From positions 3,720,001-3,784,000 of the forward strand of contig NZ_CP063458.1 in assembly GCF_015169395.1 (NCBI RefSeq): 64,000 bases of DNA. The letters are read 5' to 3'. Positions within the stretch are counted from its first letter, which is position 1. Every line of letters begins with the position of its first letter. Positions 42,432 through 64,000 of this stretch are shown piece by piece. This DNA comes from Humisphaera borealis. Lineage in GTDB: Bacteria; Planctomycetota; Phycisphaerae; Tepidisphaerales; Tepidisphaeraceae. The position numbers and the translations under genes are program-made. The notes under the pieces were generated by a model. The model saw only the letters and a list, made by a program, of their open reading frames with translations, made no database searches and had not been told where the DNA came from.

Positions 42432-42734
42432 CTACGCCTGCTCGACGACGAATACCTGCCTGTACCGCAGCACCCCGCCGACACGATCGCTCACATGAGC
42501 CGCGACCCAGCTCGCCTGTGATTGCCCGTCGAGCTGAATGACAAGGACGTCGCCGACGGAGATGCCGGGCAGCGGCGATCCCGTGAGTGGCAGATAGACG
42601 ACGGCGGACGCCGCGACCCCCGCCGACTCGAGCCAGGCTTGCTCACTGGTCGTCGGGGAAGCGAGCGTGCACCGCATCTCCAGCGCATCGCCGGCCGGCG
42701 GATTGACTTCAACGAGTTTGGCGTTGTGGAGCAT
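42432..42734 (-). CDS. Small phage-like structural protein (putative head closure)
   Basis: 100 residues, beta-rich (LVEVNPPAGDALEMRCTL, AVVYLPLTGSPLPGISVGDVLVIQLDG). The last gene of the minus-strand head module, 52 bp after the connector gene. By position (downstream of the connector gene) it would be a head-closure or tail-adaptor-like protein; no sequence signature confirms this. Start MLHNAKLV at 42734. Confidence 0.5.
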   Translation of the reverse strand: MLHNAKLVEVNPPAGDALEMRCTLASPTTSEQAWLESAGVAASAVVYLPLTGSPLPGISVGDVLVIQLDGQSQASWVAAHVSDRVGGVLRYRQVFVVEQA

Positions 42735-42786
42735 GGGTGGGTCACCGGTTTGGAGATGGGTGGTTCGCGCACGATCGGGATCCTGC

Positions 42787-43296
42787 TCACAGCAGTCGGC
42801 CGCTTTGCAGGCGGTAGCGGCGTAGCACGATCCACGCCCGGCGGCAGAGTCCCGAACGCACCCCGGGGCCGGACGTCGACTTGTAGCTTTCGGCGAGCGC
42901 GCCGGTCTGCTCGTAGACGACGCCGTCGTGCTGGGCCGAAAGGCGCAATTCGCGGTCGCCGGCGAGAATGGCATCGGCCTGGTAGAGCGCGGCGCGCTTC
43001 ACGCTTGCCGGGACGACCGCCGACTGGGTGTCGTCGTCCCAGTCCCAGACGCGCGATGGCGTTACGGCCGGGTCGCTGTCGAAGCTGCGGGGAAACTCGC
43101 GCGGCTGATCGGCGTCGTAGCGACGGCCCTGGTAGGACATCGCCGAATCGATATCGATCGTCGCCTGCAATAGCGCGGCCGACTTCTCGTCGTCGGTCAC
43201 TGCCTTGTATGCGGCCAGTTCCGGAAGTGCATCGGCGAGGGTGTCGGCGTCAGCAAGGGACAAATACGCGGCCGCAGGAATGACGGGTTCGGGCAT
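42787..43296 (-). CDS. Head-tail connector-like protein
   Basis: 169 residues. An N-terminal helical part (AAYLSLADADTLADALPELAAY...DDEKSAALLQATIDIDSAM) resembles DnaT-like or gp6-type connector proteins of siphophages, with the usual YQGRRYDADQPREFPRSFD segment. The ATG at 43296 has GAGG 7 nt upstream. It lies between the 126-residue structural gene and the last gene of the module. Confidence 0.6.
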   Translation of the reverse strand: MPEPVIPAAAYLSLADADTLADALPELAAYKAVTDDEKSAALLQATIDIDSAMSYQGRRYDADQPREFPRSFDSDPAVTPSRVWDWDDDTQSAVVPASVKRAALYQADAILAGDRELRLSAQHDGVVYEQTGALAESYKSTSGPGVRSGLCRRAWIVLRRYRLQSGRLL

Positions 43297-43398
43297 GGTG
43301 CACCTCGTGGGTTGCGATGATGACACTCGGGAAATGGGGCCGCCGGCGAGACGGTGGGTTCGGCCGGCGGCCCCGGAGACGCTGCAGCGGTGCCAGTG

Positions 43399-43779
43399 CT
43401 AAGGCAGCGGGTTGAGCCACGCCTTGTAAGTGATGGAAGGCGTTGTGCCCGAGGTCGTCAGGACCAGTCGGATGTACCGCTTGGTGCTGACGCCGCGGAC
43501 CACGGTAACACCGGTGGAGACCGCGACTGTTCCGACGCCGCACGCGGCGAAAGTGGCGTTGTCCGACGACTCCTGGAGGGTGAAGGTGTAGGCCTCGTTG
43601 CCGTCGTCGGTGTCGCGGCTGACGACGGCGACCAGCGCCGTCATGCGCCGGCCGGGCCCCCCGGGCGCGTACCCCGCGCCTAGATCCAGTGCGGTCGAGT
43701 TGAATGTAGCGGTCTTGGTGACAGTGTCCTGCAGCAACAGGCGGGCGTCCTGCGGGGTGGGAACAATGGGAGATGACAT
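43399..43779 (-). CDS. Small phage-like capsid-associated protein
   Basis: 126 residues, beta-rich with Gly/Thr patches (YAPGGPGRRMTALVAVVSRD, TTSGTTPSITYKAWL). AAGGA 7 nt upstream of the ATG. Its position just after the major capsid suggests a decoration or fibre-like protein; not confirmed by signature. Confidence 0.55.
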   Translation of the reverse strand: MSSPIVPTPQDARLLLQDTVTKTATFNSTALDLGAGYAPGGPGRRMTALVAVVSRDTDDGNEAYTFTLQESSDNATFAACGVGTVAVSTGVTVVRGVSTKRYIRLVLTTSGTTPSITYKAWLNPLP

Positions 43780-43870
43780 GGGAGATTCCTTTTATGTAAA
43801 TGGTGTAAATGCAACTGAATGATCGGTCACTTGTCGCGCGAACCAGTGACCAGTGACAAATGACAGTTTC

Positions 43871-44776
43871 CTACGCCGTAATGCCCTTGATTCGGCTGGC
43901 CGCGCGGGGGTGGAACATGCCCATGCCGATCGCGGATTCGACCAGGTCGCTGTAGTAGGTGCCGAGCAGGCCGACCGAGACGTGCTCGATCATCTTGCTG
44001 CCGATCAGGCCCTGGACGTGTTCGCCGTCGACGTCGCTGCCGGGGCGGATGACGTACAGGCTCGTGGTGACGTTCGAGCTTCCCTGGGTTTCGTTGAAGT
44101 CGAGGATGGGGGTTTCGTCGCCGTCCTCGTCGAGCACCTGGATGGGAGCGCCGTCGTACTCGCGAACCTGCGCGCCGATCTCGCTCATCGCCGCCCCGCC
44201 GGCGGCGTCGCGAACCAGTGCGGTGATCTGCCGGCGGACGGCCTTGTTGCAGATGATGACCTTGCGGCTGTTGGACCCGACGACGCTGTCGAGCGCCTCG
44301 TCGAGCAGTTCCAGCGTAAGCGGCCCGCCGTTGGCCGCCACGGTCAGCACCTGGCTGCCGGTCAGACGCCCGTTGAGCCCGTAGAACTGCAGCGGATCGA
44401 CGGTGGGATCGCCTTTGATGACGTAGCGGTCGAAGAAGAGGCCGGCCTTTTTCACTTTGGCGGCGATCGCGTTGGCGCGGGCGGCGTCGCCTTGCTTGTT
44501 GACGATCTGGCGGTCGGTGCGGACTTCGCCGCCGAAGATCGACAGCGACTCCACCTGCGGGTTCACCACGCCGGCGTCTTCGGTGTAGGAGTCGTTGAGC
44601 CCGCGGAATGCGATGCCACCGAGCGCGGATTGGCGGTTGTAGGTGTACGCGAACCCGTCCACGGGGACGAAGCGGAGGATCTTGAGGAAGATCGACTCGT
44701 TGGTGATCTCCTGGATGATGCCCCGCCGCATTGGCGAGCGGGACTGGTTGGCGAAATCGAGTAGCGAGATAGCCAT
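43871..44776 (-). CDS. Major capsid protein (HK97-like)
   Basis: 301 residues. A short N-terminal arm is followed by the E-loop-like segment (FVPVDGFAYTYNRQSALGGIAFRGLNDS...) and P- and A-domain text (GDPTVDPLQFYGLNGRLTG, DEALDSVVGSNSRKVIICNKAVRRQITALVRD, PIQVLDEDGDETPILDF) in the order of HK97-fold major capsids. It is short and has no recognisable delta domain; the separate 267-residue gene upstream may provide scaffolding. AGGA 8 nt upstream of the ATG. Host-like GC. No database comparison was made; the call rests on order and fold pattern. Confidence 0.78.
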   Translation of the reverse strand: MAISLLDFANQSRSPMRRGIIQEITNESIFLKILRFVPVDGFAYTYNRQSALGGIAFRGLNDSYTEDAGVVNPQVESLSIFGGEVRTDRQIVNKQGDAARANAIAAKVKKAGLFFDRYVIKGDPTVDPLQFYGLNGRLTGSQVLTVAANGGPLTLELLDEALDSVVGSNSRKVIICNKAVRRQITALVRDAAGGAAMSEIGAQVREYDGAPIQVLDEDGDETPILDFNETQGSSNVTTSLYVIRPGSDVDGEHVQGLIGSKMIEHVSVGLLGTYYSDLVESAIGMGMFHPRAASRIKGITA

Positions 44777-44908
44777 GGGAGTTTTCCTTTCTTGAACTGT
44801 GGAGCGGGCAAGTTCGCTTGCCTGTTGAGTTGACGATCAGGCACGCAAAGGCGCGGGCATGACCTCATGCCCAGGCCTCCTAATGTCTTTCGAATAGAGT
44901 AGATGCAG

Positions 44909-45667
44909 TTAATCTGCGCCGACAAAGAGCGGCTCGCCGTCGAGGACGTCGGGCGCGGGTGCGCGCTGATCGCTGCGCGCATCGCGGGGATGACGATTCG
45001 ATCCGGCTTCGGCGGCGGGAGTGGCTTTGGACGGCGATCCTCTCAGGCCCAGCGCGATCTGCTGCATGGGGGAGAGCTTGCTGTAGTCGATCGCGGCAGC
45101 GGGCGATTGGCCGCCGGGGTCGGTGCCGAAGAAGTCTTCCGGCGGATCGAACCCGACGTCCGGCGCCGAGGGCGCTGCCGGCTGAGTCGCCGGACTGCGA
45201 CCGCCCTGCCCGGCCGATCGCAGGTCGTCGCGGAACTGCCGGCGGACTTTCTGTTCCGCGTCGGCAAGCGTGGCGTCGTCGGCTGTCTTAGGCATGAGCC
45301 TTCTGTACGCTTCGGGAAGATCGGACAGGTGCTGCCGGAGGTACTCGTCGCGGGCGATCGATCGAGCCGCCGTCGCCGAGTGCTGGCGGAACAGGTCGGC
45401 GACGAACGCGCGGAGGTCGGCCGGGCTGACGGCCGGTGACGAGGAAGCCGTGGCCAACGGGTTGGGCGCCGGCGACGGCGTCGGTGACGCTTTGAGTCCG
45501 TCGAGCAGGGTTTGCTGCTGGCGGGAAAGCTGACCGACGGCATCGATCAATCGGCTGAGCCGGTCGTCCGGCGGAGTTGCGGGGGTCGAGGTCTGTGACA
45601 TAGCGAGTGCCTTTCTGCCGCTGGCATGCAGCGGACGTTTGAAGAGGGTGAAGAATCGGAACGGCAT
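44909..45667 (-). CDS. Putative scaffold-like protein of the head module
   Basis: 252 residues from the ATG at 45667. Pro/Ala/Ser/Gln-rich with a Gln-rich helix (LIDAVGQLSRQQQTLLDGL) near the N-terminus and a charged stretch ARDEYLRQHLSDLPEAYRRLM. Its place between portal and major capsid is where scaffold or protease genes sit in tailed-phage maps. No protease motif is seen. An alternative start is the ATG at 45601 (MSQTSTPA), which has its own AAGG at good distance; the choice is uncertain. Confidence 0.5.
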   Translation of the reverse strand: MPFRFFTLFKRPLHASGRKALAMSQTSTPATPPDDRLSRLIDAVGQLSRQQQTLLDGLKASPTPSPAPNPLATASSSPAVSPADLRAFVADLFRQHSATAARSIARDEYLRQHLSDLPEAYRRLMPKTADDATLADAEQKVRRQFRDDLRSAGQGGRSPATQPAAPSAPDVGFDPPEDFFGTDPGGQSPAAAIDYSKLSPMQQIALGLRGSPSKATPAAEAGSNRHPRDARSDQRAPAPDVLDGEPLFVGAD

Positions 45668-45780
45668 GGTGAGTCCTGTTGGGGTGTCTTGAGACGCGTA
45701 ATTGGTTGTATGCTGTACAGGTGATCTATAAGTGGCTTTGTTGGGTGTTAAGGGGAGCGTCGTCGGTGGCAACCCCCTCC

Positions 45781-47331
45781 CTAGCCCTCCCCCGGAGTAC
45801 CGGAGGAGGGGATGTGGGTACCGGAGGAGGTGACTGGGATGTCTGTGAAGGGGGCTTGGAGTTCCAGCCGTTGCAACTCGCGTTGCACGGCGGCGGGGTC
45901 GCCTAGCTGCTCTTCCACGGCCCGCTGAAGCGAGATCAGGCCGGCGGCGCGGAGGACGGACAGGCGGTCGGCGGTGTCTTTGTCGTCCTGGGGGATGCCG
46001 TCGCGAAGGGTCACGCCGATCGGTCTCTGGGGGTACCGTACGCCGGGTAGCGTGTTCTCGAGCATCTGCGCGACGGCGATCGCCCGGCGGATGCCGGCTT
46101 TCCAGTATGCCGCCTTTCGGGCCGCTTTCGTCAGCGAGTTGAAGCTCTCGAGCCGGACCTTTCGGTAGGCATCCGGCGCGGCACCTTCCTTCAGTCCCAG
46201 CAGCACCGGCGATGTCTCGGTCCGCACGAGCAACTGGTTCAGTACGAACGCGCGGTCAGCCATCGCATGGCCCAGCTCGGCGTTCCAGGTGATGTACTGC
46301 GGGATCTTTTTGGCGTCGCTGAACGCGAAGACTTCATGGTCCGACCGTACGTTGCCGTCTGCGGTGAACGCTTCTTCCGGGAAGACCATGCGCGGGTCGG
46401 CGTGCTTCAGCAGCACCCTGCCGACCTGGCTGTTCTTGGCGTTGAGCGCGTCCTGCAGCTCGATCGCGCCGTCGTAGTCGCTGACCGGGCAGCAGCGCAC
46501 GAGCTGGTTGGGAATCCAGGTGATCGTCGGGAACGGGATGCCGGTACGGGTGACGGGAGCGAGCGTGACGCCGGTTTGGCGCGGTGGTGTCGTGGAGTAC
46601 GACGATACGGCCGTGCCATCGCTTTGTGCGTCATGACTCGCAGTCCCCGCGATCCAGCTGCTCAGCTCGACCTCACGACGGCCGCCGTCGTCGTCGAGCT
46701 GATAGCACCGTCGTTCGATTCGCCCGGGCAGATAGAGGACTTCGAGGAGCAGGTGGAGCGGGGACGAGTCGGTGCCGGCATTGCGGATGCGGTAGCGGGC
46801 GTAGGCGTTGTACTGGCTGTCGGGGCCGGGCCGGCCGACGGGAAAGATCTCGTCCGCCGGCACCTGCCGCAGGTGGACTTCACGTTCGTGAACGCAGGCT
46901 TCGAGGAAGGTTTCGCCTTCGTAGCTGGCATCGACGGCGCACGCGTAGAGCAGGCTGTGGAGGTTGCTGCGCTCGCCGAGCCGCGCCAGGGCGTTTTGCT
47001 GGGCGGCGTTGTCGGCGACGAGTAGGGGTTCCTGGCCGAAGAGCAGGTCGGCGCCTTTGAGCGAGATCAGGCCCAGCACGTTGCAGGTGAGGTACATCCG
47101 CACCTGCCGATCGCCGGCCCGAACCAGCGGAAAATCGAACTGCGTCCGCCCTTCGTCCAGGAAGTACTCGCGGTGGCGGCCGTCGTAGAGGAGACGTGCC
47201 TGGCGCAATCGCTCGAGGCGAGCCTGCTGGTCATCGGTCAGAAATGCGCCGTAGCCGCCGGCGCGGGCGTTGTTGTAATCGGTGCCGGTGGTGTGAACCC
47301 AGACGGCGGGGATGGCTCGGGTGAGTTGCAT
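45781..47331 (-). CDS. Portal protein (SPP1 gp6-like)
   Basis: 516 residues. Portal-type text: RLRQARLLYDGRHREYF, YLTCNVLGLISLKGADLLFGQEP, EIFPVGRPGPDSQYNAYARY, and the C-terminal half KAGIRRAIAVAQMLENTLPGVRYP...IPQDDKDTADRLSVLRAAGLISLQRAVEEQLG, as in SPP1 gp6/DUF-type portals. The last residues (TSSGTHIPSSGTPGEG) are encoded by a palindromic repeat sequence (CCCTCCCCCGGAG..), so the C-terminus is probably recently altered. Gap to the terminase gene 112 bp. Confidence 0.82.
   Translation of the reverse strand: MQLTRAIPAVWVHTTGTDYNNARAGGYGAFLTDDQQARLERLRQARLLYDGRHREYFLDEGRTQFDFPLVRAGDRQVRMYLTCNVLGLISLKGADLLFGQEPLLVADNAAQQNALARLGERSNLHSLLYACAVDASYEGETFLEACVHEREVHLRQVPADEIFPVGRPGPDSQYNAYARYRIRNAGTDSSPLHLLLEVLYLPGRIERRCYQLDDDGGRREVELSSWIAGTASHDAQSDGTAVSSYSTTPPRQTGVTLAPVTRTGIPFPTITWIPNQLVRCCPVSDYDGAIELQDALNAKNSQVGRVLLKHADPRMVFPEEAFTADGNVRSDHEVFAFSDAKKIPQYITWNAELGHAMADRAFVLNQLLVRTETSPVLLGLKEGAAPDAYRKVRLESFNSLTKAARKAAYWKAGIRRAIAVAQMLENTLPGVRYPQRPIGVTLRDGIPQDDKDTADRLSVLRAAGLISLQRAVEEQLGDPAAVQRELQRLELQAPFTDIPVTSSGTHIPSSGTPGEG
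45786..45811. repeat. Small palindrome inside the portal 3' end
   Basis: CCTCCCCCGGAGTACCGGAGGAGG lies within the last codons of the portal gene. It resembles the GGAGTACCGG-type dispersed element seen in other GC-rich genomes and supplies the SSGT-rich tail. Confidence 0.55.
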
Positions 47332-47443
47332 GTTTTCCCTCTGTAGTAGATACAGTCAAAAGCAGCGTCGCCGCATCCGTGGCCGTGGGGCATTGCTGCG
47401 GCTCGTTGTGCCCGCCTGTCGTTCGACCTCTGGTGGCGACCGC

Positions 47444-48865
47444 TCACCACCCCACGGGTTTGCGGGCGACGCTCATCGCCTGGTGTGCCGGCGTTTGCTC
47501 GGCGGCGTGGCACGCGAGCGCCAGCGCCCAGAAGCGGTCGGCATGGCCGTCTGCGTCGCGCGGGGCGGACAGGCGCACATGATGTGCCGCCGTCACCGTA
47601 CGCCGAACCTTGTGCAGGTCGTCGCGGGTTGCCGCATCGGCCGGGATTCGGACCAGGCGATCCTGGAATAGCCGCACTAGCGGCATCGCCAGTTCGCTCT
47701 TGGCGTCGGTTGTGAAAACGATCGGCTCGACGCGATGACCGTGTTTCTGGGCGAGTCGTTCGGCGAGCATCGCGCCCATGCCGGTGGCATCGATGCACAG
47801 CCGGCGCAGCCGCCGGCCCTTCAGAAGGTCGTCGAGCAGTTGTTCCTGCACGCTGAACGGCGCATCGCCCATCACGCGGACGATGCGCGTCCAGAGAACG
47901 TCGCCGAGACGTTCGACCACCCACAACACCGAGCGGTCGCGTTTGCGGCCGACGTCGAAGCCGGCGAACAGTGGGCCGGCGCTTTGCGGAACACCCGGGG
48001 TGACGGCGGCGTCGCCGGCGATCGTGTCGACCTCCAACAGTTGCAGGTTGGCCGCTTCGCACCCGGCAATCAGGGGATAGCCGAGCAACGCGGCTCCGTC
48101 GGCCGAGGGTTCGCAGAGGTACTCCTCGCGGAACGATGCTTCGTCCGGGCAACTGGCGCGGATTTCGTCGATGAAGTCGCGGCGTGCGGTGAGATTGGGC
48201 TCGGGCAGCCCGCGAATGCACTCCACCAATCCCTGGTTGACGGCGTCCACCAGCGTGACGCGATAGCGACCGACCGACTGGCGTGTGATTGGCGTCGCAA
48301 GGCTGTCGGCGGTGGTGTCCGGATTGTTCAATGGCGGTTGAACAAGCTGGTGAAAAAAAGAGCCTACTCCATTGTGCGTTGACCAGATGCGCATCTGGTG
48401 GCCCCAGATGAGCGCCGCCGGCTGCATCGCCTTGTAAAGTTCCCGCGGCTGCTCGTGAAACGCGAACTCGTCGGCTTCGGTGTCGCCGCCCTTGGAACGG
48501 AAGAACGTTGGGCTGGAACTGCCGGCGACGATCCGCGCGCCGTTGCAGAATCGCAGCATCCATGCCGTCATCCCTTCCTCCTCGATCAGCGTCTGCGACC
48601 ACAAGGCACCGACGGCGTTGAACACGCCGGCCCAGTGGCGGCAGTCCTTGATGAACTCGCGGGCGGCTGTGAGGTCGGCAGAGGAGTAGAACAGGTCGGT
48701 TCCATACCGGAGGCGTCGATAAACCGCCCGGCATGCCGACACGTACGTCCACCCGATCCGCCTGCTCTTTTCAGCAAAGCAGATCGGGCGGTCGTCTGCA
48801 AGCCATGCCTTCTGGTAAGGCAGCAGGTGCGCGACGTACCCTGAAAGGTCGGGTGTAGATCCCAT
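47444..48865 (-). CDS. Terminase large subunit (Mu gp28-like)
   Basis: 473 residues from the ATG at 48865, which has AAGGAG 6 nt upstream. The ATPase part has a deviant Walker A, AEKSRRIGWT at 31-40 (no classical GKT), and a Walker B-like DTEADEF at about 128-134. The nuclease part has the RNase H-like AGFDVGRKRDRS (Asp at about 304), LCIDATGMGAM (Asp at about 359) and a last Asp in HADRFWALAL. This pattern is that of Mu gp28-type terminases. First gene of the minus-strand module. A longer upstream frame exists but reads into an untypical Arg-rich stretch and was not used. Confidence 0.82.
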   Translation of the reverse strand: MGSTPDLSGYVAHLLPYQKAWLADDRPICFAEKSRRIGWTYVSACRAVYRRLRYGTDLFYSSADLTAAREFIKDCRHWAGVFNAVGALWSQTLIEEEGMTAWMLRFCNGARIVAGSSSPTFFRSKGGDTEADEFAFHEQPRELYKAMQPAALIWGHQMRIWSTHNGVGSFFHQLVQPPLNNPDTTADSLATPITRQSVGRYRVTLVDAVNQGLVECIRGLPEPNLTARRDFIDEIRASCPDEASFREEYLCEPSADGAALLGYPLIAGCEAANLQLLEVDTIAGDAAVTPGVPQSAGPLFAGFDVGRKRDRSVLWVVERLGDVLWTRIVRVMGDAPFSVQEQLLDDLLKGRRLRRLCIDATGMGAMLAERLAQKHGHRVEPIVFTTDAKSELAMPLVRLFQDRLVRIPADAATRDDLHKVRRTVTAAHHVRLSAPRDADGHADRFWALALACHAAEQTPAHQAMSVARKPVGW

Positions 48866-49161: not shown

Positions 49162-49190
49162 CATGTTACGAACATGCGCATTTGTGTCAA
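49162..49190 (-). promoter_or_regulatory. Promoter with palindromic operator for the head module
   Basis: On the minus strand TTGACA (49190-49185) and TAACAT (49168-49163) are 16 nt apart. A palindrome CATGTT-CGT-AACATG (49176-49162) covers the -10 box. This is the usual place for a repressor site. The sequence also contains GTTC-N7-GTTT, one mismatch from a GTTC-N7-GTTC LexA box of alphaproteobacteria; LexA control is only an idea. The start codon of the terminase gene is about 300 nt downstream. Confidence 0.5.
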
Positions 49191-49255: not shown

Positions 49256-49354
49256 CCGGGGTGCCATGGGCTGCCGTACTCCGCTGCCCGTGGCAAGGTA
49301 TGACTGCGGTGACACCGCCACGGGCAGGCGAGTACGCCAGCCCATGGCACCCGG
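49256..49354. repeat. Inverted doublet, 34-nt arms (GTACTCCGC family)
   Basis: The left arm GTGCCATGGGCTGCCG.. (49261-49294) and the right arm (49317-49350) are near-perfect reverse complements. The outer ends (CCGGG / CCCGG) match as well. Each arm contains an inner hairpin (CCATGGGC/GCCCGTGG). Shared core with 1-47 and 2655-2738. Confidence 0.85.
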
Positions 49355-49398: not shown

Positions 49399-51174
49399 TC
49401 AGGCCTCGATGGGTGTGGGGCTGAGATCAAGTTCGGGCAGTTGGCGTCGGACGGTATCGGCGAGTTCGGGGCGGGCCGCGACCGCGCCGACAATCGCCGA
49501 CAGACCGGCGCGGGTTTCAGGAACGCGCACCGACCGGATGGCGGCGGCGAGGACGGGAATCAGCATCTCGGCGCGAGCCGGTGTTTGACGGATCGCATCG
49601 CTGATCTGCCGCAGGGCGGTCAGCTTTCGGCGGCCGCCGCGATGGATGTTCAGCAGGACGCCAGTCCAGAGAAAGGTGATCGCGTCGTCAGTCGCGCCCG
49701 GGAGGTTCTGGCGTTGTTGCAGCACATCGACGAGGAACAGCCGGATGTCTTCGAAAGGCGATTCGACCAGGCGAGACCAGAGGGCCGGGTCGTGCCAGCC
49801 GGCGGAGGGCTTGGTTGCGCTCGCGAGCCAGTCGCGGGCGGCAGCGCGGATCTCGGGCAGCAGGCTGTCGAAGAACCGGGTGACGGTGTCGACGTTGTAA
49901 ACGCCGGCGACACCGAGATGGCCCAGTGCCCAGGTGCCGATGTCGTAGCCGACGGCGGCGCATCGGGCATCGGCCAGGTGCACCAGTGCCTGCCGCAGTT
50001 GTGACGGGTCGATCGACCGACCCTGGAGAAAGTTCAACCCGAGCCGCGCGACAGGGGCGGCTTCGGTTTTCGCCAGGTTGATCGCGTCGAAGAGCGACAC
50101 CGATGCCGGCGTGACGTGCCGCATCATCAGGCGCGCGACGGCATCGAGCACGGTGAGGTTCCTGTTCTGCAGCAAGCGGAACCAGCGGTCGAACGGAAGT
50201 GATTCAAGCCCTGACGCCTTCTCGAACAGTTCGATGCCGATCGACCAGACGGCTTCGTCGGGGTGGGCCAGCAGCGGCGCGACTTGTTCGACCGGCAGGC
50301 CGACGAGTGCCTCGGCATGCCAGCGGCGGAGCAGATCAATGGACCAGACGCGGGCGAACGTCGATCGGGCGGCGGTGAGCAGCGAGAGCAGTTGGGGGGC
50401 GGCCGCGCTGTTCTGCCAGAGCGCACCAAAGGCGGGTGCGGCGGCGAGATTGGCCAACGACGGTCCGCCGACGAGCTTGGTGCGATGCGTCGTGAAGGCG
50501 ATCGATTCGCTTTCGCCGAAGCAGGCGTGCAGGAGCGACCAGCAGTCCATGAGGTTGTCGCCGGTGGCGAGGTCGGCGTCGGTGTAGCTGCCGATCATCG
50601 CGGCGACGGCGGGAACGTAGTCAGTGGGACGGCGATGGCCGAGGTGGCGGAAGTACCGCCAGGCGCGACGGCGTAGGTAGTGGCGGGTGTGGTGCGAGAA
50701 CAGGCGCCTCCCGCGCCAGCCGAGCTGGCCGTAGACGATCCACTGGCCGCTTCCTGGCTCCCTGTAACGATGGCCGGGAAAGTAGTGAAGACGATCTTCC
50801 GGTGAGATCAGGCGTTCTTCGGGCACACTCATGCGCGAGGTGTAGTCCCACCGCCATCTCTTCCTGCGGACCCGCCGGACAAGCCGATCGAAGCTCACCG
50901 CCCAGGCCGACAGCAGCAGGTCATCCTGGCGAGCCTCGGCTCCTTTGAAGAGCCGCTTGACGAGCGAGTTGTGATTGCCGGCGTTCAGCGGCAGGTCGAT
51001 GTACGCGAGCATCTGCTCGCGTGCCCAGGGCCGCGGATCGCGGAGCCACTTCTCGGCGAACGCCGCCATCGGGGCGGGATCGACGAAGGTTCGCAGTGCC
51101 GGCAAGAACTGTGGGCTGCCGGCGGCGAACAGCTCTTCGACGACGAGAAAGGAAGTTGGCCCGGCGTCTGCCAT
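49399..51174 (-). CDS. Helical-repeat protein of unknown function
   Basis: 591 residues, all-alpha in appearance with HEAT-like pairs (LLRRWHAEALVGLPVEQVAPLLAHPDEAVWSIGIELFEKA; VARLGLNFLQGRSIDPSQLRQALVHL). No signal or membrane helix. N-terminal region about 1-140 has DYTSRMSVPEERLISPEDRLHYFPGH. Stop 2 bp from the window's repeat block end, so it is the last gene before the phage-like region, but its role there is unproven. Confidence 0.6.
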   Translation of the reverse strand: MADAGPTSFLVVEELFAAGSPQFLPALRTFVDPAPMAAFAEKWLRDPRPWAREQMLAYIDLPLNAGNHNSLVKRLFKGAEARQDDLLLSAWAVSFDRLVRRVRRKRWRWDYTSRMSVPEERLISPEDRLHYFPGHRYREPGSGQWIVYGQLGWRGRRLFSHHTRHYLRRRAWRYFRHLGHRRPTDYVPAVAAMIGSYTDADLATGDNLMDCWSLLHACFGESESIAFTTHRTKLVGGPSLANLAAAPAFGALWQNSAAAPQLLSLLTAARSTFARVWSIDLLRRWHAEALVGLPVEQVAPLLAHPDEAVWSIGIELFEKASGLESLPFDRWFRLLQNRNLTVLDAVARLMMRHVTPASVSLFDAINLAKTEAAPVARLGLNFLQGRSIDPSQLRQALVHLADARCAAVGYDIGTWALGHLGVAGVYNVDTVTRFFDSLLPEIRAAARDWLASATKPSAGWHDPALWSRLVESPFEDIRLFLVDVLQQRQNLPGATDDAITFLWTGVLLNIHRGGRRKLTALRQISDAIRQTPARAEMLIPVLAAAIRSVRVPETRAGLSAIVGAVAARPELADTVRRQLPELDLSPTPIEA

Positions 51175-57923: not shown

Positions 57924-60204
<2,281 letters not shown>

Positions 60205-60303
60205 TCCGGGACAGCCTCTCGAGGCACCCACTCGACGCGACGTTTCAAAAACCGAATTCAAGCAACTGGCGGGTTCAGGCCCGCCCAACGAGGACAACGA
60301 ATC

Positions 60304-60597
60304 ATGGCACTCAAGCTCAAGCCCCTGGCCGACCGTGTAATCGTCAAGCAGACCGAAGCCGAAGAAAAGACCGCCAGCGGGATTTACCTCCCGGACGCGG
60401 CCAAGGAAAAGCCCACCAAGGGCAAGGTCATCGCCGCCGGCCCCGGCAAGTTTGATGACAACGGCAAGCGGATGGAACTGGCCGTCTCGGTCGGCGACAC
60501 CGTCTACTACGGCAAGTACGCCGGCACCGATGTCGAAGTCGACGGGCAGAAGCTCGTCATCCTTCGCGAGTCGGACATCCTCGGCGTTCTCGAGTAA
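60304..60597 (+). CDS. groES: Co-chaperonin GroES
   Basis: 97 residues, normal length. The mobile loop region is [21 protein letters not shown] and the C-terminus ESDILGVLE. Downstream of groEL1, the inverse order to the usual groES-groEL. Confidence 0.96.
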
Positions 60598-60606
60598 ATC
60601 GCTCGT

Positions 60607-60724
60607 GTAGGGTCCGCCTTGGCGGACGCGATGCTCTCGCGTCCGGCGGACGGCCTGAATGACCTAACGATCAAAGCTCTCGCGTCCGCTACGACGCTCT
60701 CGCGTCCGCCAAGGCGGACCCTAC
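60607..60724. repeat. GTAG-REP inverted doublet inside the chaperone cluster
   Basis: 25-bp perfect arms at 60607-60631 and 60700-60724. Each arm begins GTAG (right one read on the opposite strand) and folds as GTCCGCC-TT-GGCGGAC. The word GCTCTCGCGTCCG occurs three times inside. This is the textbook architecture of a REP pair, and it sits between groES and groEL2. Confidence 0.92.
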
Positions 60725-60738
60725 GAAGGATCAATCCC

Positions 60739-62360
60739 ATGGCTGCCAAACAAATGAAGTTCACCACCGACGCCCGCGCTGAAATCTTCAGCGGGATGTC
60801 GCAGCTTTCCCGGGCCGTCAAGGCGACCCTCGGACCCCGCGGACGCAACGTCGTCCTCCAGAAGTCGTTCGGCTCGCCCCGGATCACCAAGGACGGCGTC
60901 ACTGTCGCGAAGGAAATCGAGCTCCCGCAGCCGTTCGAGAACATGGGCGCCAAGCTCATCTCGTCGGTCGCGAGCAAGACCGGCGATGTCGCCGGCGACG
61001 GCACCACCACCGCGACCGTGCTCGCCGAGGCGATCCTCGCCGAAGGCCTGAAGTACGTCGCCCAGGGTGGCGTGAATCCGGTCACCATCCAGCGCGGCAT
61101 CCTCAAGGCCGCCGAGGCCGCTGCCGAGGCGATCACCGGCTTTGCCCGCAAGGTCAAGGGCCACGAAGACTACAAGAAGGTCGCCACCATCTCCGCCAAC
61201 GGCGACGAGCTGATCGGTCAGCTCATGGCCGACGCGATGGAAAAGGTCGGCAAGGAAGGCGTCATCACGGTTGACGAGGGCAAGAGCACCGAGAGCACCC
61301 TCGAGTACACCGAAGGCATGCAGTTCGACAAGGGCTACCTGTCGCCCTACTTCCTGACCAACCCGGGCACCCTCGAGTGCGAACTCGAAAACCCGTACAT
61401 CCTGCTCCACGAAAAGAAGATCAACAACCTGGCCGAGCTGCTCCCGCTGCTCAACAAGATCGTCACCGCCAGCCGTCCGCTGCTGATCATCGCCGAAGAC
61501 ATTGAGTCCGAAGCGCTGGCGGCGTTGGTCGTCAACAAGCTCCGCGGCGTCCTGAATGTCGCGGCTGTGAAGGCCCCCGGCTTCGGCGATCGCCGCAAGG
61601 CGATCATGGCCGACCTTGCCGTCCTGACCGGTGCCAAGTTCATCAGCGAAGACCTCGGGCTCAAGCTCGAGAACGTCGAGCTGGAAGACCTCGGCACCGC
61701 CAAGGAAGTGACGATCGACAAGGACAACACGCTGATCGTCGAAGGTGCCGGCACCAAGAAGGAAATCCAGGCCCGGCTCGATCAGATCCGCGCCCAGATC
61801 GACAAGACCACCAGCGACTACGACCGCGAGAAGCTCCAGGAACGCCTGGCCAAGCTCACCGGCGGCGTCGCAGTCATCAAGGCCGGTGCCAACACCGAAA
61901 CCGAGATGAAGGAACGTAAGGACCTCATCGACGACGCCCTTCATGCCACCCGCGCGGCGGCTGAAGAAGGCGTCGTTCCCGGCGGCGGCGTCGCGTTCCT
62001 GCGGGCGATCGCGTTCGTTGAAGCGGCCAAGAAGCAGGCCAAGGGCGACGAGAAGATCGGCTTCGACATCGTCATCCAGGCCCTGCAGGCCCCGGCGATC
62101 CAGATCGCCGAGAACGCCGGCGAAGACGGCGAAGTCGTTGTCGACAAGATCCTGCAGAAGGAAAGCCAGAGCTACGGCTACAACGCCGCCACCGGCGAAT
62201 TGGCGACATGTTCAAGTTCGGCATCATTGACCCGGCCAAGGTCGCCAAGACGGCGTTGCTGAACGCCGCCAGCGTCAGCGGCCTGGCCCTGACGACCGAC
62301 GTCATCCTGACCGATTACAAGGGTGACGACGAAGACCAGATTCCCGGCGCGATCATCTAA
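60739..62360 (+). pseudogene. groEL: Chaperonin GroEL (copy 2), reading frame broken near the 3' end
   Basis: Residues 1-487 are in frame ([20 protein letters not shown] ... [12 protein letters not shown]). At 62200-62201 one base appears lost: the expected GGC-GAC-ATG-TTC (…[17 protein letters not shown]…) reads on in the next frame and runs through 52 codons to a TAA at 62358-62360. The uncorrected frame ends at 62262 with an unrelated tail ([17 protein letters not shown]). Length of the whole gene, 1622 bases, is one short of a multiple of three. The restored C-terminus has no GGM tail (ends [10 protein letters not shown]). Whether this is a sequencing error, a mutation or programmed frameshifting cannot be told here. 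ATG at 60739 with AAGGA 8 nt upstream. Confidence 0.85.
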
Positions 62361-62386
62361 GTGTCGGCAGTCGTAGAAAAGCTGAA

Positions 62387-62440
62387 CCACGGCGGCGCGA
62401 AGACACGAAGATACCCTTTGTGTCTTCGTGCCGTTTGTGG
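62387..62440. repeat. CACGAAG-class hairpin between groEL2 and dnaJ
   Basis: The left CCACGGCGGCGCGAAGACAC (from 62387) pairs with the right GTGTCTTCGTGCCG (to about 62435). Imperfect, about 20-bp arms, short loop. Confidence 0.6.
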
Positions 62441-62447
62441 ATATTGA

Positions 62448-62476
62448 GGTGGCACGGGTGTCCTGCCCGTACCACC
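62448..62476. repeat. REP-like hairpin (GGTGGCACGGG type)
   Basis: GGTGGCACGGG with TGCCCGTACCACC, about 12-bp arms, directly before dnaJ (24 nt upstream of the GTG). Confidence 0.65.
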
Positions 62477-62500
62477 GCCCGCGCCTGTTGGAGCACCTGA

Positions 62501-63646
62501 GTGGCCACGACCAAGCGAGATTACTACGAAGTCCTCAGCGTCTCCCGTACCGCGACGGGCGAGGAGATCAAGCGCGCTTATCGCAAGCTCGCGATGAAGT
62601 ACCACCCCGATCGCGCCGGTGCCGATCAGAAGGCCGAGTACGAGGTGCACTTCAAGGAGTGTGCCGAGGCTTACGAAGTCCTTTCCGACGACACCAAGCG
62701 ACAGCGCTATGACCAGTACGGCCATGCGGGCGTCGGCGGGCAGCACGACTTCTCCCACATGGACGTCGGGGACATCTTTTCGATGTTCGGCCTCGACGAA
62801 CTGTTCGGCGGTGGTCGACGCCGGGGTGGCGGCGGCGGAGCGGGTGGAAGGCCGCGCGGGTTCGACCTCGAAACCCAGGTCGAGCTCACCCTCAACGAGA
62901 TCGCCAACGGCACCGAGAAGACGATCGAGTTCGAACGCCAGGACGCCTGCGAAAACTGCAAGGGCTCCGGCGCTCGCCCCGGCTCATCACCGATCGTCTG
63001 CCCGCAGTGTGGCGGGCAGGGTCGCGTCGCACAGCAGGGCTTTGGCGGCATGTTCCGCATGGTCACGACCTGTCCCAACTGCCGCGGCAAGGGGAGCGTC
63101 GTCAAGGAACACTGCGTCGCCTGTGCAGGCAGCGGGAAGAAACAGAAGCACCGCGTCGTCAATGTGAAGATCCCCGCCGGCGTTCATGAAGGACAGGCGG
63201 TTCGCGTTGCCGGCGAAGGCGAGGCCGGTGACGGCCCCAACGCTCAGCCCGGCGACCTGCACTGCTACATCGCGATCAAGCCGCACCCGATTTTCACCCG
63301 CCACAACAACGACCTGGTCTGCCAGGTGCCCGTGTCGTTCGCCCAGGCGGCGCTCGGCGGCAAGATCGAAGTGCCCACGCTCAAGGGGCGCGAGCAGCTC
63401 GATATCCCCGGCGGCACCCAGCACGGCGAAGTGTTCAAGCTCAAGGGCAAGGGCCTGCCCGACATTCGCAGCCATCGCACCGGCGACGAGCTGGTTCAGA
63501 TCCTGATCGAGATCCCCAAAAAGCTGACCGACCGTCAGAAGCAGTTGCTCAAGGAGTTCTCCGAGCACGATAGTGCCGACGGCGACCACCTTCCGCAGCG
63601 CAAGGGTTTTCTCGATAAGTTAAAGGAAGTCTTCAAGGGCGAGTAA
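62501..63646 (+). CDS. dnaJ: Chaperone DnaJ
   Basis: 381 residues. J domain (about 6-70) with HPD in the text MKYHPDRAG. Gly/Phe region to about 110 (GGGRRRGGGGG). Cys-rich zinc part near 150-210 with four CxxCxGxG-like motifs (CENCKGSG, CPQCGGQG, CPNCRGKG, CVACAGSG). C-terminal peptide-binding domain follows. The start is GTG at 62501 with GGAG 8 nt upstream. It activates DnaK's ATPase and feeds substrates; DnaK is not in this window. Confidence 0.95.
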   Translation: MATTKRDYYEVLSVSRTATGEEIKRAYRKLAMKYHPDRAGADQKAEYEVHFKECAEAYEVLSDDTKRQRYDQYGHAGVGGQHDFSHMDVGDIFSMFGLDELFGGGRRRGGGGGAGGRPRGFDLETQVELTLNEIANGTEKTIEFERQDACENCKGSGARPGSSPIVCPQCGGQGRVAQQGFGGMFRMVTTCPNCRGKGSVVKEHCVACAGSGKKQKHRVVNVKIPAGVHEGQAVRVAGEGEAGDGPNAQPGDLHCYIAIKPHPIFTRHNNDLVCQVPVSFAQAALGGKIEVPTLKGREQLDIPGGTQHGEVFKLKGKGLPDIRSHRTGDELVQILIEIPKKLTDRQKQLLKEFSEHDSADGDHLPQRKGFLDKLKEVFKGE

Positions 63647-63764
63647 CGAAGGTGTTCACTGTCATGAATCAACTTTCCCCGGCGACAAACGGGAATGGAA
63701 GCAACCGGCATGATTTACCGCCGCTTGCCAGTGACAAGGGACAAACGACAAAGGACCAACCCAG

Positions 63765-64000
63765 ATGACCCGCATCCCCATCAACGACAACGATCCCGAG
63801 CAGGCCAATACGGCAGCCGCCGACCAGGCCGAAGAACTGTTCGAGCCCGATCCGGAAGCGCCGGGTGCCACCGACGACGAACTGGCGAAGGTCAAAGCCG
63901 AGCGCGACGACTTCTACAACCGCCTGGCCCGCGCGACTGCCGACTTCAAGAACACCCAGAAGCGGCTGCAGGACGAGTTCGACCAGCGCGTGAAGTACGC
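63765..64000 (+). CDS. grpE: GrpE nucleotide exchange factor (partial, cut by window end)
   Basis: First 78 residues only. An acidic disordered N-terminus (NDNDPEQANTAAADQAEELFEPDPEAP) leads into the typical GrpE helix (LAKVKAERDDFYNRLARATADFKNTQKRL). AAGGA lies 9-10 nt before the ATG. It is the last gene in the chaperone cluster; GrpE swaps ADP for ATP on DnaK. Confidence 0.85.
   Translation, partial: MTRIPINDNDPEQANTAAADQAEELFEPDPEAPGATDDELAKVKAERDDFYNRLARATADFKNTQKRLQDEFDQRVKY

Follow-up and report, generated by a model that had tools for sequence, protein, structure and literature searches.

Humisphaera borealis carries a seven-gene viral head operon that could well be a domesticated, tailless DNA-packaging head, reduced once, kept by selection, and put to a host use resembling that of a gene transfer agent (GTA). 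We hold this reading tentatively as a whole, and its parts differ in strength. The origin of the operon, its single reduction, the selection acting on it, and its shared promoter are supported by sequence; its use would most likely be the filling of heads by the large terminase (TerL) with non-specific DNA, GTA-like yet tailless. Intact genes and catalytic residues, a parent prophage, a sister copy, a single clade, low dN/dS, and a conserved promoter block all count in favor of this reading. If it is true, a tailless head operon that lacks a small terminase (TerS) and mobility genes, yet is selected across species, would mean that a bacterium can benefit from DNA-packaging capsids that have no tails of their own. 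The use of packaged DNA could then also be tested in a single small operon, against the complete parental prophage as internal control.

The window analysed here is the whole 64-kb stretch between 3.72 and 3.784 Mb of the 7.19 Mb single-contig H. borealis genome. At 42432–48865, seven intact minus-strand open reading frames (ORFs) form one head operon, flanked by an alpha/beta-hydrolase gene on one side and a HEAT-repeat gene on the other. ORF calls and family or fold matches bear out the seven head genes of the preliminary description, which run from TerL to the stopper in the following order:

47444..48865, minus strand: terL, large terminase, 473 aa (PF17289, 9e-14; phrog_5909, 1e-32)
45781..47331, minus strand: portal, 516 aa (PF05133, 3e-13; phrog_533, 5e-31)
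44909..45667, minus strand: scaffold-like protein, 252 aa (31% identity to the resident-prophage gene at the scaffold position)
43871..44776, minus strand: major capsid protein of the epsilon15 gp7/BPP-1 type, 301 aa (phrog_212, 1e-50)
43399..43779, minus strand: Bbp16-like cement/decoration protein, 126 aa (phrog_427; PF21190, 4e-4, under the Pfam gathering score)
42787..43296, minus strand: Ad1-like head–tail adaptor, 169 aa (phrog_477, 6e-15; start at 43296 preferred)
42432..42734, minus strand: stopper/head-closure-like protein, 100 aa (hhalign and predicted fold)

The last gene, previously given a start at 42974, begins at 42734. Each gene had been credited with its own ribosome-binding site; a Shine–Dalgarno sequence is clear before most of them, though not before the stopper gene. 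The operon is host-like in composition, as described earlier, with a GC content of 65.4% (63.5% for the whole window) and host-like codon usage and GC3.

The capsid protein matches the NCBIfam model MCP_gp7_epsi_15 (6e-51) far above the family cut-off, and its AlphaFold model was poor (pLDDT 46) and left out of the analysis. The major capsid and cement are of the same type as those of epsilon15 and BPP-1 (3j40, 3j4u), although these are podophages with full genomes, and their identity to the island is low. The scaffold-like protein has no family match in profile searches. Similarly, the stopper-like protein has no family match, but it aligns with its positional counterpart in the prophage (hhalign E 2e-9), and its predicted model (pLDDT 86) has a fold like the R4C, Chi, lambda, and SPP1 gp16 stoppers, with PilZ barrels scoring equally. 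In TerL, the residues of both the ATPase (EKSRRIGWT, DEFAF) and the nuclease (FDVGR, CIDATG, HADRF) are intact. These packaging genes bear on the encapsulin-like use once proposed for the operon, in which the capsid protein would build a storage or enzyme compartment. An HK97-type capsid retained without a tail would suit such a compartment, but the idea is very improbable: an encapsulin gene would be expected beside one for a cargo enzyme and without packaging genes, whereas the operon has no such enzyme coupled to it, and the selection that keeps the capsid also keeps the portal, the adaptor, and a terminase whose catalytic residues are intact; in H. borealis the stopper is retained as well.

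Searches with the parent-phage genes found no homologues or fragments of tail, TerS, MuF, or cement–adaptor-block genes in the 64-kb window. No lysis, integrase, regulator, replication, or HNH gene was found in the window or the flanks of the operon, in agreement with the earlier statement that the flanks hold no tail, lysis, integrase, or replication gene. Remnants of lysis, integrase, or regulator genes are not seen either, and tRNA genes are likewise absent from the window. A larger prophage truncated at the window edge is ruled out since both flanks consist of host genes, with HEAT and DUF1080 neighbors that recur in another genus. A satellite with att repeats was also rejected, as flank-to-flank repeats are not above chance. 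The neighboring HEAT-repeat gene (49399–51174) matches PADLOC HEAT-ARM_XIII along its entire length (E 3e-188), and its homologue in another genus also lies near a DUF1080-like gene. HEAT-ARM_XIII is a family that we take to be linked to retron type XIII; assignment of the gene to that type was discarded, as gene calling placed neither an RT nor a WGR gene next to it and Rfam gave no match.

The same genome harbors, 2.16 Mb from the island, an intact-looking Mu-like transposable siphoprophage (G000:C1, ~1585–1622 kb) with the same head genes. It encodes MuA, MuB, a DNA methylase, an S24 repressor, TerS, TerL, a 982-aa portal–MuF fusion, scaffold, capsid, and cement, followed by four further genes and then by the adaptor, stopper, tail proteins, and tape measure. 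The tail genes that the preliminary description recommended seeking elsewhere are found here, in a matching set. Parts of this gene order are common to two IMG/VR contigs and to prophages of three family members (G009, G004, and G024). Head genes and their order in the resident prophage and the contigs IMGVR 3300048819_000301 and 3300014501_000052 are the same as in the island. Identity to the island is 58–73% for the capsid (73% in the resident prophage, at most 62% in the IMG/VR relatives), 47–63% for the portal (at most 55% in IMG/VR), and 50–52% for TerL, in IMG/VR as among all relatives sharing it; a TerL of this kind is lacking from one of the IMG/VR contigs. A cement gene directly after the capsid gene is likewise found in the relatives. 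These also carry TerS, a MuF domain (fused to the portal or encoded by the next gene in close relatives), extra genes between cement and adaptor, and a tail, and the prophage adds transposition genes and a repressor; the island has none of these, and its portal lacks MuF.

These comparisons support descent of the island from a lineage of Mu-like transposable siphophages, a complete member of which resides in the same genome. The island arose by loss of TerS, MuF, the cement–adaptor block, and everything beyond the stopper, and since head genes are kept to either side of the missing block, this was not a simple or single end-deletion. Two features once read as peculiar to the island are thereby explained as inheritance from the parent phage. 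The Walker A motif (EKSRRIGWT), described as deviant, is what the parent phages ordinarily have, and the pairing of terminase and portal, described as a mosaic, is the same pair that these phages carry. A second MuA-like transposase gene is present at G000:C1:5253702–5255666 (37% identity), and genome-wide portal and capsid searches found nothing near it.

Kinship with a resident phage raises the idea of anti-phage interference, whereby island capsid, portal, or terminase subunits would co-assemble with those of an infecting or induced relative of the Mu-like phage and poison its virions. Related phages reside in the genome or occur in the family, the capsids of island and resident prophage are close, and the upstream neighbor matches a HEAT protein of a defense library. 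We nevertheless consider interference quite unlikely, because the TerL catalytic residues, cement, and adaptor are also under selection, none of which a simple capsid decoy needs, and because the HEAT gene belongs to a host gene neighborhood kept in another genus.

The sister species (G001, a 65% complete MAG) carries the same head module on two unlinked contigs. On contig C184, a host metallophosphatase gene directly precedes terL, which is followed by the portal gene, with no TerS. On contig C313, the capsid, cement, and adaptor genes are followed ~34 bp on by host trpD; the block intervening between cement and adaptor is gone, and there is no stopper gene between adaptor and trpD. The sister assembly lacks the portal–scaffold junction, so the loss of MuF was checked in the H. 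borealis genome only, and searches of this 65% assembly found neither MuA nor a second portal or capsid. The sister TerL (L029:863-2488) has a Pro/Ala-rich N-terminal extension of ~50 residues.

The two islands group as one clade for TerL (support 99/100), portal (100/99), capsid (95/99), cement (97/97), and, more weakly than for the other four genes, adaptor (86/87). The clade was absent from the capsid tree when distant sequences were included, and was recovered once the long ones were left out. Island-to-island dN/dS, from one species pair, is 0.17–0.25, versus 0.27 and 0.41 in two host genes, while dS between the islands is ~0.6–1.8 and for most genes similar to that of the two host gene pairs. 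The frame decay in relatives that was named beforehand as evidence against domestication is not seen: no gene common to both islands has an internal stop. Conservation at the same site, also proposed as a check, is borne out for the module and not for its immediate neighbors, which differ between the two species. However, trpD, the neighbor in the sister, sits 50 kb from the island in H. borealis, in the orientation that one inversion of a common site would give.

Most simply, then, the head genes would have been reduced once, before the split of the genus's two species, leaving a tailless head operon of single origin that is inherited vertically and maintained by selection, rather than a recent prophage wreck. 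Selection on the tailless set in both species suggests that the bacterium, and not a virus, uses the head genes. A decaying remnant would instead require that two related prophages each lost all but their head genes, the signal of selection being left over from their phage past. The restriction to two genomes and the differing immediate neighbors count in its favor. It is improbable, however, for genes that show neither stops nor relaxed selection at such dS, that form one clade five times over, and that lie in islands with the same losses (TerS, the cement–adaptor block, and everything distal) and a conserved promoter; the position of trpD also speaks for a common site. The earlier proposal of a head-only, domesticated particle gains support from the equally reduced sister copy, the purifying selection, the conserved promoter, and the parental prophage.

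The promoter is predicted upstream of terL:

49163..49190, minus strand: sigma70-like predicted promoter, TTGACA-N16-TAACAT, within a 61-bp block conserved with the sister

The sister version reads TTGTCA-N16-TAATAT, and the block lies ~283 bp upstream of terL in H. borealis and 365 bp upstream in the sister. The alignment score of the 61-bp block was reached by none of 1000 shuffles and was equaled or exceeded in 5 of 427 real host-genome windows, which are probably copies of a palindromic repeat inside the tested stretch. Allowing two mismatches, the inner 19-bp motif occurs nowhere else in the genome. The repeat itself, at 49259–49352, is a 94-nt near-perfect palindrome with 36-nt arms that are 92% complementary, and its ~40 related genome sites suggest a REP- or MITE-like repeat family.

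In general terms, the operon would work in four steps. (i) A single promoter upstream of terL would drive the making of scaffolded, cement-stabilized capsids. (ii) A portal–TerL motor without a small terminase of its own, and hence presumably without sequence choice, would pack any cell DNA. (iii) The adaptor and stopper would close the filled heads. (iv) The host would use these tailless heads, released by cell death or vesiculation or simply retained, as a GTA-like particle whose use is independent of a tail of its own. Counting against this scheme, the operon has no tail or lysis genes and no obvious route of release or delivery; there are only two carrier genomes, the sister being a fragmented MAG with no stopper after the adaptor, and dN/dS comes from one pair, for which dS is in places close to 1. 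A more specific version is possible but doubtful: in this genus the complete packaging head of a Mu-like siphophage may have become a cellular organelle. It would be a DNA-filled capsid, closed by a stopper, lacking a tail, and made from a promoter of its own, and selection would maintain it for some benefit to the host that does not involve the transfer of DNA through a tail; storing DNA, disposing of it, and exporting it in vesicles are examples.

Compared with known systems, the operon resembles GTAs of the RcGTA/CcGTA type in being a host-kept phage structural operon without replication or integration genes, which is the part of the earlier GTA-like proposal that stands. To our knowledge, all GTAs described so far keep a tail. 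GTA particles are tailed, the tail being encoded in the structural cluster, and lysis and accessory genes of the host belong to these systems, whereas the island, known from its genes alone, has none of these, and the matching tail genes belong to the resident prophage. The absence of TerS is a further likeness to CcGTA, since no TerS is known for the Caulobacter GTA (PMC11841831). Tailless siphophage particles of Lactococcus lactis TIFN are likewise DNA-filled heads made by a bacterium, but they come from a whole prophage with disrupted tail genes that packages its own genome and exits in membrane (PMC8752148), whereas the island has lost all non-head genes.

The capsid-forming satellites, cf-PICIs and cf-PISPs, share with the island a capsid, portal, adaptor, closure protein, and terminase without a tail. 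A similar use is conceivable here, in which island heads would borrow TerS, tail, and lysis functions from the prophage or an infecting relative and yield chimeric transducing particles. The tail-facing adaptor and stopper are kept in H. borealis, and a matched tail-bearing prophage is at hand. Yet cf-PICIs are mobile and encode both terminases, HNH, a protease, a Stl-like regulator, and usually an integrase (PMC13230959), whereas the island has no second terminase or protease, and no integrase or recombinase, regulator, HNH, replication gene, or att-like repeat beside it. Moreover, the sister has no stopper after its adaptor and no resident MuA, second portal, or second capsid in its 65% assembly, and the pattern of the island looks vertical. 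Tail borrowing is therefore unlikely. Because it misses both the tail genes of GTAs and the integrase and regulator of satellites, we call the operon a vertically kept tailless DNA-packaging head operon.

The head-only island is known in two genomes, which represent both species of the genus; no head-only copy of this kind occurs in other genomes of the family (26) or among the 397 Phycisphaerae genomes searched, which rules out a class-wide GTA. A more distant capsid is present in three other genomes of the class, at loci among other phage genes in G150 and G086, and in G004 in a short run that includes a scaffold-like gene, the contig continuing into host genes. Among the matches listed, isolated phages reach at most 37% capsid identity, and our literature searches turned up no account of domesticated modules of this head-only kind in planctomycetes. 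Toward the far end of the window, the region 58546–63998 carries groEL, groES, another groEL, and dnaJ, with a short chaperone-type ORF closing the window, all named by reading the sequences.
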